Below, in pieces: positions 23,863 to 26,321 of a DNA stretch of 41,382 bases. Below the pieces are notes generated by a model. It saw only the letters and a program-made list of their open reading frames with translations. It was not told the origin of the DNA and did no database searches. How positions within the stretch are numbered: position 1 is the stretch's first letter; each line of letters starts with the position of its first letter. Source of the stretch: an uncultured Bacteroidota bacterium (lineage in GTDB: Bacteria > Bacteroidota > Bacteroidia > Flavobacteriales > Flavobacteriaceae); NCBI GenBank assembly GCA_937136025.1, contig CAKZOC010000169.1, positions 1 to 41,382 of the forward strand. The letters run 5' to 3'. The position numbers were made by a program, and so were the translations under genes.

Positions 23863-24660
23863 ATGAAAAACGTTTCTTGTTTTCAGATTTTTAAAACTTT
23901 GCTTTTTGTTTTTGTTGTCACAGGATTTCAGAGTTGCAGCAAAGATGCTGAAATGGACCTCAATTCTGAGGGCTCTGAATTATCCAAAGTTGAACTCAGG
24001 ACCATTCTAGAGACCGACGCGTATACGGGTCTCATGGATGAAGTTCTGATGGATCTCATCGAGAAAAACGGACCCGGTACCGCAAAGTTCGCAGATGAGA
24101 ATTGTTATGAGATAACCTATACGGATTCAGGTTTTCGGGCTGAATTCGGGAATTGTGTCCTGAATACGACTGAAAATGTCAATGGAGTTCTTGAAGTGAC
24201 CTATGCTGAAAGTGCGCAGAATACTTCCTTTACGGTCACCTATACAAACTTTTTTGTGGGCGCTGCTCAACTCAGTGGAACGCGTACGATTGGAATCCGT
24301 CAGTCGGGAGATACCCGTATCGATTTAGCCGTACAAAGTGATATGACCGTTGTCCTGCCAGAGGGTACTGTCCTGACGGAAAAGGGATCCAAGGTCCTGC
24401 AAATTCAACTCGGCAATTCCCTTGGAGATACAACTTATGCCTTAAGTGGCAGCTGGACGGTCTCTGACGGAACTGCGACCTACGAGGTGGATATTCGTGA
24501 GTCCCTCGAGGGAAATTTGGCATGTCCGTATGCGGTGCGCGGGTTGATGGATATCGAGAAGAACGGCCTGGAAATAGGTGTCGATTTTGGGGATGGCACA
24601 TGCGATAATGAAGTTATACTCGTCTATCCCAATGGAGCCCGTGACATTCTGGAACTATAA
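23863..24660 (+). CDS. Lipoprotein of unknown function
   Basis: 265 residues. The signal peptide is FKTLLFVFVVTGFQSC with the lipobox Cys followed by SKDAEMDLNSEG. The rest is beta-rich with repeated short Thr/Gly strands (TFTVTY-like patterns) and only four later Cys, two of them near CPYAVRG and GTCDNEV, which may form disulfides. I do not recognise a family. It stands alone, 110 bases after the amidohydrolase, and ends upstream of a terminator that could serve both strands. Confidence 0.65.
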   Translation: MKNVSCFQIFKTLLFVFVVTGFQSCSKDAEMDLNSEGSELSKVELRTILETDAYTGLMDEVLMDLIEKNGPGTAKFADENCYEITYTDSGFRAEFGNCVLNTTENVNGVLEVTYAESAQNTSFTVTYTNFFVGAAQLSGTRTIGIRQSGDTRIDLAVQSDMTVVLPEGTVLTEKGSKVLQIQLGNSLGDTTYALSGSWTVSDGTATYEVDIRESLEGNLACPYAVRGLMDIEKNGLEIGVDFGDGTCDNEVILVYPNGARDILEL

Positions 24661-24788
24661 GTATACCAAGTTGCCGGTGTTTAGCGTGTTGACAGCCGTA
24701 TAGCTCGGAACTATAGTTTTAGTGATTTCCCCAAACCGGGGGATCGCCGCCCTTTACCGCTCTGGTTGGGTGCCGTCCTGTAAAACGA

Positions 24789-24821
24789 AAATCCCGTAGG
24801 CGAGAGGCGCATACGGGATTT
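24789..24821. terminator. Strong bidirectional terminator
   Basis: AAATCCCGTA at 24789-24798 pairs perfectly with TACGGGATTT at 24812-24821 around a 13-base loop. T-rich DNA lies on both sides (ATTTTTG to the right, TCGTTTT when read leftwards). It would end the lipoprotein transcript from the left and the three small-protein genes from the right. Confidence 0.8.
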
Positions 24822-24862: not shown

Positions 24863-24976
24863 TCAATGAACGTAGTTCCGGTTTTCAGACCACCTTACGC
24901 GTTTACTATCCTTAAAATTAGAAAAGTAGTTGAACCTTCTGGACTCTGTCGGCGTGTGATTGATGTTTGTTCTCAT
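24863..24976 (-). CDS. Small basic protein, third of a tandem family (copy A)
   Basis: 37 residues, ATG at 24976, TGA ending at 24863. The peptide begins MRTNINHTPTES and contains the cores RRFNYFSNFK and SKRVRWSENRNYVH. Over the 25-residue C-terminal region it matches copy B at 22 positions, while codons differ widely (for example CGG AAC TAC GTT CAT against AGA AAC TAT GTA CAC). Protein-level conservation with drifted DNA is strong evidence that this is translated. It has 8 Arg/Lys and 6 aromatic residues, suggesting nucleic acid, ribosome or membrane binding. I do not recognise the family. It is the last gene of the set, 41 bases before the terminator. Confidence 0.75.
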   Translation of the reverse strand: MRTNINHTPTESRRFNYFSNFKDSKRVRWSENRNYVH

Positions 24977-25033
24977 GGCTGTTTCGTTTTTTGATGATGA
25001 TGGATGATTGTCGATTAATGATTGATGATGCAC

Positions 25034-25144
25034 TTAGTGTACATAGTTTCTCGATTCTGACCAGCGCACTCTTTTAGAGGACTTGAAGTTTGAGAAATAA
25101 GAAAAACGTCTGTGATCTGTGGGTGATGAATTGTGTGATTTCAT
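25034..25144 (-). CDS. Small basic protein, second of a tandem family (copy B)
   Basis: 36 residues, ATG at 25144, TAA ending at 25034. It begins MKSHNSSPTDH and has the cores RRFSYFSNFK and SKRVRWSESRNYVH. It differs from copy C at six bases, five of them synonymous and one giving Val for Ile at residue 35. The leader before the ATG (AATCAAAAACAAATCATC) is A-rich without a Shine-Dalgarno site, as is usual in Bacteroidota. It lies 49 bases after copy C and 57 before copy A, consistent with one transcript. Function unknown. Confidence 0.78.
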   Translation of the reverse strand: MKSHNSSPTDHRRFSYFSNFKSSKRVRWSESRNYVH

Positions 25145-25193
25145 GATGATTTGTTTTTGATTGATGAATGATGATTGCCGATTGAGAATGCGC

Positions 25194-25304
25194 TTAGTGT
25201 ATGTAGTTTCTCGATTCTGACCAGCGTACTCTTTTGGAGGACTTGAAGTTTGAGAAGTAAGAAAAACGTCTGTGATCTGTCGGTGATGAATTGTGTGATT
25301 TCAT
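25194..25304 (-). CDS. Small basic protein, first of a tandem family (copy C)
   Basis: 36 residues, ATG at 25304, TAA ending at 25194. Same start MKSHNSSPTDH and cores RRFSYFSNFK and SKRVRWSESRNYIH as copy B. Being first on the minus strand, it should hold the promoter side; the DNA between 25305 and 25565 is AT-rich and shared with the divergent SDR gene, but no clear promoter match was found for this strand. A different frame over the same DNA (25141-25401, 86 residues) is judged a shadow because it ignores the repeat unit. Function unknown. Confidence 0.78.
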   Translation of the reverse strand: MKSHNSSPTDHRRFSYFSNFKSSKRVRWSESRNYIH

Positions 25305-25565
25305 GATGATTTGTTTTTGATTGATGAATGAATATGGAACGATTGTTTCTTTTTAGCGAACCCTCTTTTGTTTCGGGTTTACATTGAATAAGACGACGCA
25401 TATTTTTAAATGTTACAGTACTATGTAATAAAAGGTACTATTTTAAACAATTTTTAACATTTGTTTCCCTTGAGACTCTTATGGCTCCTGCAGATGTGCA
25501 TATTCAATCCGTAAAGGGGGTAGGGCGGATTGTATATTATTAGAATTCTGCCTACATTCCGACCT

Positions 25566-26321
25566 ATGGAATTAAATGGGCAGCACATCCTGGTAACTGG
25601 GGCATCGCAGGGCATCGGCAGGGCCATTGCCCGGGAATTGATGGCACAGGGGGGGCGCGTGGTTGTACATTATAATACGAATGAAAAAGCAGCCGGGGAC
25701 CTCATTGCTGAATATCCCAACACACATTCGGCAATAGTGCAGGCCGATTTAGAAGATCCGGAAGCTGTCTCCCGCTTATTTCATTCAAGCCTCAAACTCA
25801 TAGGACATCTGGACGCCATTATTTTTAATGCAGGCGTATTTATTCCGCATCCCGTTGCGCAATCCACAAACGACTGGTACGGGATTTGGAAAAAGACACT
25901 ATCCATTAATCTGGATAGCGTCGGCCAGCTTACACAATTGGGAATTACGCATTTTAAACAAAAGGGTGGGGGACGTTTTATTTATATCGGCAGCAGGGCT
26001 GCTTTTCGTGGTGAGACCGCGGAGTACCTGGCTTATGCAGCCTCAAAGGGAGGAATCACCGCTCTGTCCAGATCGGTAGCCCGGTCTTTTGGAAAAGAGG
26101 GGATCACCTCCTTTGTTATTGCCCCTGGATTTACGCGTACCGCTATGGCTGAATCGTTCATCGCCAGCCATGGAGAAGCTTTACTTTTAGATGAGATTGC
26201 TTTGCCTGAGCTCACCCGTCCGTCGCATATTGCACCACTTATTGCTTTTATATGTGGAGGAAAGATGGATCACGCTACGGGAACAGTTATCGATTTTAAT
26301 GCGGGGAGTTATATGCATTAA
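25566..26321 (+). CDS. SDR-family oxidoreductase
   Basis: 251 residues from the ATG at 25566; the frame extends to 25530 but the family fold begins at MELNGQHILVTG. Classical short-chain dehydrogenase: cofactor loop TGASQGIG, NAGV, catalytic Ser in IYIGSRA and YxxxK in YAASK, then IAPGFTRTAMAE. An NAD(P)-dependent alcohol/ketone reaction is expected; its substrate is unknown. The gene stands alone, divergent from the small-protein genes. Confidence 0.88.
   Translation: MELNGQHILVTGASQGIGRAIARELMAQGGRVVVHYNTNEKAAGDLIAEYPNTHSAIVQADLEDPEAVSRLFHSSLKLIGHLDAIIFNAGVFIPHPVAQSTNDWYGIWKKTLSINLDSVGQLTQLGITHFKQKGGGRFIYIGSRAAFRGETAEYLAYAASKGGITALSRSVARSFGKEGITSFVIAPGFTRTAMAESFIASHGEALLLDEIALPELTRPSHIAPLIAFICGGKMDHATGTVIDFNAGSYMH

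Follow-up and report, generated by a model that had tools for sequence, protein, structure and literature searches.

Tandem genes at 24863-25304

The window, by which we mean the whole stretch of 41,382 nucleotides analysed here, from an uncultured member of the Flavobacteriaceae, carries three tandem open reading frames on the minus strand at 24863-25304, as claimed in a preliminary description made from the letters of the DNA. First in transcription is copy C (25194..25304, minus strand; 36 aa, MKSHNSSPTDHRRFSYFSNFKSSKRVRWSESRNYIH), followed by copy B (25034..25144, minus strand; 36 aa), which is one residue apart from C, and by copy A (24863..24976, minus strand; 37 aa, MRTNINHTPTESRRFNYFSNFKDSKRVRWSENRNYVH), which is last. 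The reading frame of copy A continues open upstream as far as a GTG at 25033, and its start was placed at the ATG of the 37-aa form on the strength of the alignment with relatives. A recount gave the same difference between B and C as before, six of 111 coding bases, five of them synonymous and one non-synonymous, and the 22 of 25 core residues said to be identical in copy A hold in the comparison with B (21 of 25 in that with C). The strong terminator reported at the end of the array was recovered as a hairpin and T-run 3' of copy A, on the minus strand at about 24780..24819, and a second method agrees. The array lies between a convergent lipoprotein-like gene (23863-24660, plus strand) and a divergent short-chain dehydrogenase gene (plus strand, end at 26321). 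The lipoprotein-like gene belongs to no Pfam family; genes related to it are found close to five other arrays (L032, L035, L048, L063 and L065).

An ordinary annotation was expected to leave this DNA empty, and the curated family models do give no match to the array proteins. No family matching the tiny proteins was found in Pfam, NCBIfam or PADLOC, nor was any match found among PDB profiles (best E 0.7 and 1.7). PHROGs returned a single match, to a 28-aa protein of the kind described below, with an E of 0.27 that was taken as chance, and Rfam contained no RNA family matching the array DNA. An origin from phages or plasmids was considered and rejected, as a tblastn search with copy C gave nothing in phage and plasmid collections; the viral contigs gave 172 pattern matches with zero relatives among them.

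The prediction that a tblastn search would find multicopy relatives was borne out within the family. Copy C matched 26 of 199 Flavobacteriaceae genomes at E<=0.1, and 22 were kept as firm after the weak matches in G033, G062, G093 and G116 (best E 0.03-0.07) were dropped. The same-genus genome G191 has a match in the corresponding stretch, and the genome to which the window belongs has no family matches beyond copies A, B and C. A short-pattern scan of named genomes gave 49 loci, including ones in Robiginitalea, Eudoraea, Maribacter, Muriicola, Pricia, Poritiphilus, Kriegella and Lutibacter. Across the phylum, 395 genomes were searched with a profile, at most 19 candidates being scored in each, and among the matches listed four genomes were hit, all of them Flavobacteriaceae. 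In total 87 loci yielded 190 copies, 180 of them distinct, and 136 of the distinct copies have 37 residues. Single copies account for 28 of the 85 distinct arrays, while 23 hold two copies, 29 three, four hold four and one holds five; the median period is 161 bases.

Selection on the protein, which the preliminary description had read from the three copies, is upheld by the wider set. Among 1007 equal-length pairs with 70-98% DNA identity, which are not independent of one another, 93 were unscorable and all 914 scored pairs had dN/dS <1, with a median of 0.16. Differences over the 1007 pairs numbered 6465, 5104 and 13650 at first, second and third codon positions, respectively. The region before 176 distinct starts is rich in adenine (81% at -13, 95% at -12, 90% at -11, 61% at -6 and 74% at -3) and a Shine-Dalgarno-like sequence was seen at one of them; these adenines match positions -3, -6, -12 and -13, which the consulted part of a study of Flavobacterium johnsoniae gives as positive determinants of translation (PMC6847099). 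Residue conservation spans most of the window-family protein.

These data bear on the possibility that the transcript itself is the product, as a structured or antisense RNA in which the reading frames are incidental. The short tandem units do resemble small-RNA repeats in layout, but codon-position bias, dN/dS and the start context of the reading frames all speak against an RNA product, as do the missing Rfam match and an ordinary folding energy (z -0.77, 20 shuffles), and we regard it as very improbable. Judged by sequence, the window array consists of real protein-coding genes, a polycistronic set encoding tiny basic proteins in tandem, which begins at the ECF-type promoter described below and is closed by the intrinsic terminator.

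Plain dosage of identical copies was also considered as a general rule and was ruled out by eight loci (seven named Eudoraea and one Flavobacteriaceae MAG) in which each of the three positions keeps its own sequence. Of 28 mixed arrays, 19 follow a rule by which Arg-ending copies come first and nine, namely those eight loci and L139, break it; this rule was likewise dropped.

An ECF-type promoter and its candidate sigma factor

On the minus strand at 25391..25423, 5' of copy C, lies an ECF-type promoter, TAGTACTGTAACA-N15-CGTCT, which is the sole exact site in its own genome; chance would provide 0.03 such sites in the window at <=3 mismatches. An alignment of 84 promoter sites places a conserved upstream element next to it (25424..25460, minus strand, limits approximate), some 40 bases long and made up of TGTTAAA-type repeats followed by TAC..T.TTATACA. 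Among 39 arrays or single copies of the window family, a loose pattern found the core promoter in 22, and a near-variant was recognised by eye in three more (L045 on the minus strand, L046 and L066). It is absent by pattern and by eye from the other 14 of the 39, 10 of which are single copies.

With <=2 mismatches, 107 of the 199 family genomes have the promoter, at 141 places in all, compared with about 25 for the reversed control. At <=1 mismatch, five genomes out of 395 sampled from the class have it, and all five are Flavobacteriaceae in a sample where 381 genomes belong to other families. The set of promoter sites with <=1 mismatch comprises 94 distinct sites, 67 of them exact, after L243, a cut-off repeat of the L160 site, was left out (95 listed, 68 exact). 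Reading frames of four tiny-protein families lie within 800 bases downstream of 84 of the 94 sites and 62 of the 67 exact ones, as counted with four profiles that were grown from single seeds on the same promoter regions. Three of the 10 distinct misses (L173, L276 and L280) have a tiny basic reading frame ending in W-x3-R-x-[YF]. At two further misses, L160 and L282, the exact array promoter precedes another kind of protein, which is longer and has acidic EIEE repeats.

The own genome encodes 16 sigma factors. Its looser core sites precede, besides other genes, one ECF sigma gene (L084/L215) matching the NCBIfam model NF058625, and this gene is the clear promoter match among the 16. Downstream of it follow a 141-aa protein with no Pfam match, presumed from its position to be the anti-sigma factor, two DUF4252 proteins and, by eye, an MscS-like protein. 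Another sigma gene of this genome, L224, has TGTAACC..CGTC near its start. The core promoter is present at 29 of 30 NF058625 sigma loci, the own one included, of which 15 were found by pattern and 14, with a TCGTCG variant, by eye; L214 has none. In the closed, single-contig genome G032 two of the three exact cores belong to arrays and the third to the NF058625 sigma gene, against one match in the reversed control. The exact core occurs 10 times in G000 (control 1) and seven times in G191 (control 0), before DUF2807-like and M16-like genes, as recognised by eye, and also before genes with no obvious link. The core sites noted before DUF2807-like and M16-peptidase-like genes in two Robiginitalea genomes are L310, L311, L293 and L077.

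Of 84 genomes that encode the NF058625 sigma factor, 29 have exact array promoters, as against none of 16 that lack it (p 0.005), many of the latter being small or incomplete. One-mismatch sites before a tiny reading frame occur in two genomes with no NF058625 sigma factor above the cut-off, G031 and the 81% complete G079. In G174 (L276 and G174:C1:71997-72500) a single tiny reading frame with an exact promoter is separated by some 10 kb from the NF058625 sigma gene. SigP of Porphyromonas gingivalis was set aside as a candidate, since its motif, as given in the consulted part of the report, is unlike the array promoter (PMC4800418).

The same tiny proteins might instead be driven by other ECF sigma factors, or by several. 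This would agree with a class of ECF promoters, described in F. psychrophilum and having CGT in the -10 box, for which, from the part of the study consulted, several sigma factors are possible (PMC9723704), and with the tiny reading frame of G031. The one non-array core site of G032, on the other hand, belongs to the NF058625 gene, and the distribution of exact sites among genomes with and without this factor also counts against other sigma factors, with the reservation on small genomes just given; we consider them rather unlikely. A second regulator acting together with NF058625 is likely, as the upstream element was not seen in 15 promoters of the sigma gene.

Among the closest known systems is the operon of the GFO_1088/PG0214-family sigma factor NF058625 with DUF4252 (NF058626, PF14060), whose sigma and DUF4252 proteins were both matched by models. 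It has the core TGTAACA-N15-CGTC in common with the arrays, but it contains no tiny proteins and its promoter lacks their extended upstream element. The EcfO-Reo regulon of Bacteroides and Phocaeicola, as outlined in the consulted parts of two reports, combines an ECF sigma factor with an anti-sigma factor in the response to outer-membrane stress (PMC13114119, PMC9308784). The likeness, drawn from these descriptions, lies in the pairing of an ECF sigma with an anti-sigma factor, here a presumed one. The two differ in that the anti-sigma factor of EcfO-Reo, by the same account, reaches the outer membrane and NigD lipoproteins belong to its regulon, whereas here there is a presumed anti-sigma factor of 141 aa. 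In F. psychrophilum the SM6 promoters are of ECF type with a CGT box at -10, and the targets named in the consulted part of the report are T9SS and Band-7 genes and one sigma/anti-sigma pair (PMC9723704). They are alike to the array promoters in their ECF type and CGT box, a likeness drawn from the description of the -10 box, and differ in that no tandem tiny proteins appear among the targets reported there.

Other tiny proteins and a shared C-terminal tail

The window family follows 21 of the promoter sites. A family of 28-aa proteins, like MRTLNNNQLTGTLQGTKSNQWNTKRRYR, follows 62, and one of 44-aa proteins, like MKTLVKISRRLDALTQQDLMCGKKIEDFQSYYSGIWKGTKRYAH, is last in line at 30 of these 62 and alone at two; the count obtained with the 44-aa profile is inflated because that profile also matches 28-aa reading frames. 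A rare 39-aa family with GFGWNTD was found at four sites. Reading frames of 38-40 aa with GFGWNTDxWYD were also observed before or inside arrays at L035, L051, L063, L065 and L161.

A C-terminal motif, W-x3-[RK]-x-[YFH], is carried by most distinct members: 45 of 51 in the window family, 94 of 95 among the 28-aa proteins and 28 of 33 among the 44-aa proteins. Its Trp lies 7-9 residues before the C-terminus in all carriers but one. The motif occurs in three of the four 39-aa proteins as well, yet 17-18 residues before the end. In a profile comparison (hhalign) of the window, 28-aa and 44-aa families the tails are in register, with an E of 3.7e-5 (probability 71%) for the 28-aa versus the 44-aa family and of 2.1e-4 (probability 46%) for the window versus the 44-aa family; the alignment of the window with the 28-aa family is weak (E 0.012, probability 3.7%). 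On sequence grounds, the window array represents one form within a broader set of tiny proteins that have this promoter and a W-x3-[RK]-x-[YF] tail in common. The earlier interpretation stands in its part on protein selection and is to be extended by what it had not included, namely the promoter, the upstream element, the other tiny-protein families and the shared tail.

The window and 28-aa families occur in 22 and 66 of the 199 genomes, respectively, the latter count including weak matches up to E 0.1, and one genome has both, a deficit of co-occurrence with a p of 0.0014 when phylogeny is ignored. At the level of sites, G056 (L281) has a window-family profile match downstream of 28-aa copies. 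That the two families replace each other behind one promoter suggests that they have one role.

Terminators were found 3' of 22 of the 39 window-family arrays, where 0.3 were expected, and of 19 of the 62 28-aa sites, for which the shuffle control gave 0 in one shuffle each. Clustering of the neighbour genes in 38 loci (39 arrays) revealed no constant neighbour. An operon partner was sought among the recurring neighbours and rejected, as these are variably ordered and oriented and resemble regional synteny. A gene of ExbD type (Pfam PF02472) lies 3' of 22 of the 62 28-aa sites (e.g. L147, L152 and L155), with no terminator found between array and ExbD at 17 of the 22, and of none of the 21 window-family sites. 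The 28-aa arrays followed by ExbD, often with no terminator between, may be units that do not stand alone.

The position of the tail, together with the ExbD genes, brings to mind leader or nascent-chain arrest peptides, in which the tail, lying 7-9 residues from the stop, would act in cis on the translating ribosome. A motif fixed near the stop in reading frames of 28-44 codons with differing N-termini would fit such a role, and so would the ExbD genes downstream of 28-aa loci, most of them with no intervening terminator found. Against cis action in the window family stand the terminators directly 3' of the window array and of 21 other array loci, the absence of ExbD from the window-family sites, the lack of a constant downstream gene and conservation over most of the protein length. 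Overall we hold arrest peptides to be improbable, though less clearly so for the 28-aa family. The terminators and the missing constant neighbour point instead to action in trans.

Leaderless multi-peptide bacteriocins likewise consist of tandem short cationic paralogues that have no leader. The array proteins, with a median net charge of +6 and no leader seen by eye, could by their tandem layout, short length and charge be cationic peptides secreted against competitors. The arrays, however, evolve slowly across genera, and the 38 loci with clustered neighbours have no constant one fit for a transporter or immunity gene, which makes a bacteriocin role most unlikely.

Proposed function and significance

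Small ribosome-associated stress proteins are short, basic and aromatic, and the array proteins are alike to them in composition but have no match in Pfam, NCBIfam or the PDB profiles. Binding to RNA, ribosomes or membranes, which had been proposed earlier, is a guess from composition that our results neither support nor exclude. The predicted structure, of low confidence (pLDDT 63.6, pTM 0.27), consists of two short helices at residues 9-17 and 25-34.

Taken together, the data lead us to the following model, which we consider somewhat favoured on what the genomes contain: the array would be an operon under ECF control whose tiny proteins act in trans and dock by their shared tail. Envelope stress is the probable condition under which the NF058625 ECF sigma factor, with a second regulator acting at the upstream element, would activate the array, and the transcript would run from the ECF-type promoter through C, B and A to the intrinsic terminator. 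The tiny proteins would then act in trans in the cytosol, where the conserved tail may dock onto one conserved partner. The ribosome or an RNA is a possible though doubtful candidate for this partner; the inner membrane or a membrane protein is a rather weak one, and a partner of some other kind about equally so, while the transcription machinery or the anti-sigma factor appears unlikely.

Small proteins driven by ECF sigma factors are a known kind. A search of the literature by titles and the beginnings of abstracts found no description of these tiny proteins or of the array promoter, and arrays of tiny proteins that share a tail and have an extended promoter are undescribed in the literature searched and the libraries scanned, although the array reading frames could stand unnamed in catalogues such as GMSC.

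A broader proposal, which we put forward tentatively and as somewhat short of an even chance, is a stress module common to the Flavobacteriaceae, in which an ECF sigma factor and a second regulator would control interchangeable tiny proteins, the tail would serve as a code for docking onto a single conserved target in the cytosol, possibly the ribosome, and the positions within an array would be specialised. Stress regulons of the Flavobacteriaceae are little described, and this group of tiny proteins lies outside the curated libraries searched; with the one shared genome counted once, 87 of the 199 sampled genomes hold such genes. The promoter signature, the candidate sigma factor and the near-invariant tail make their expression, regulation and partner directly testable.
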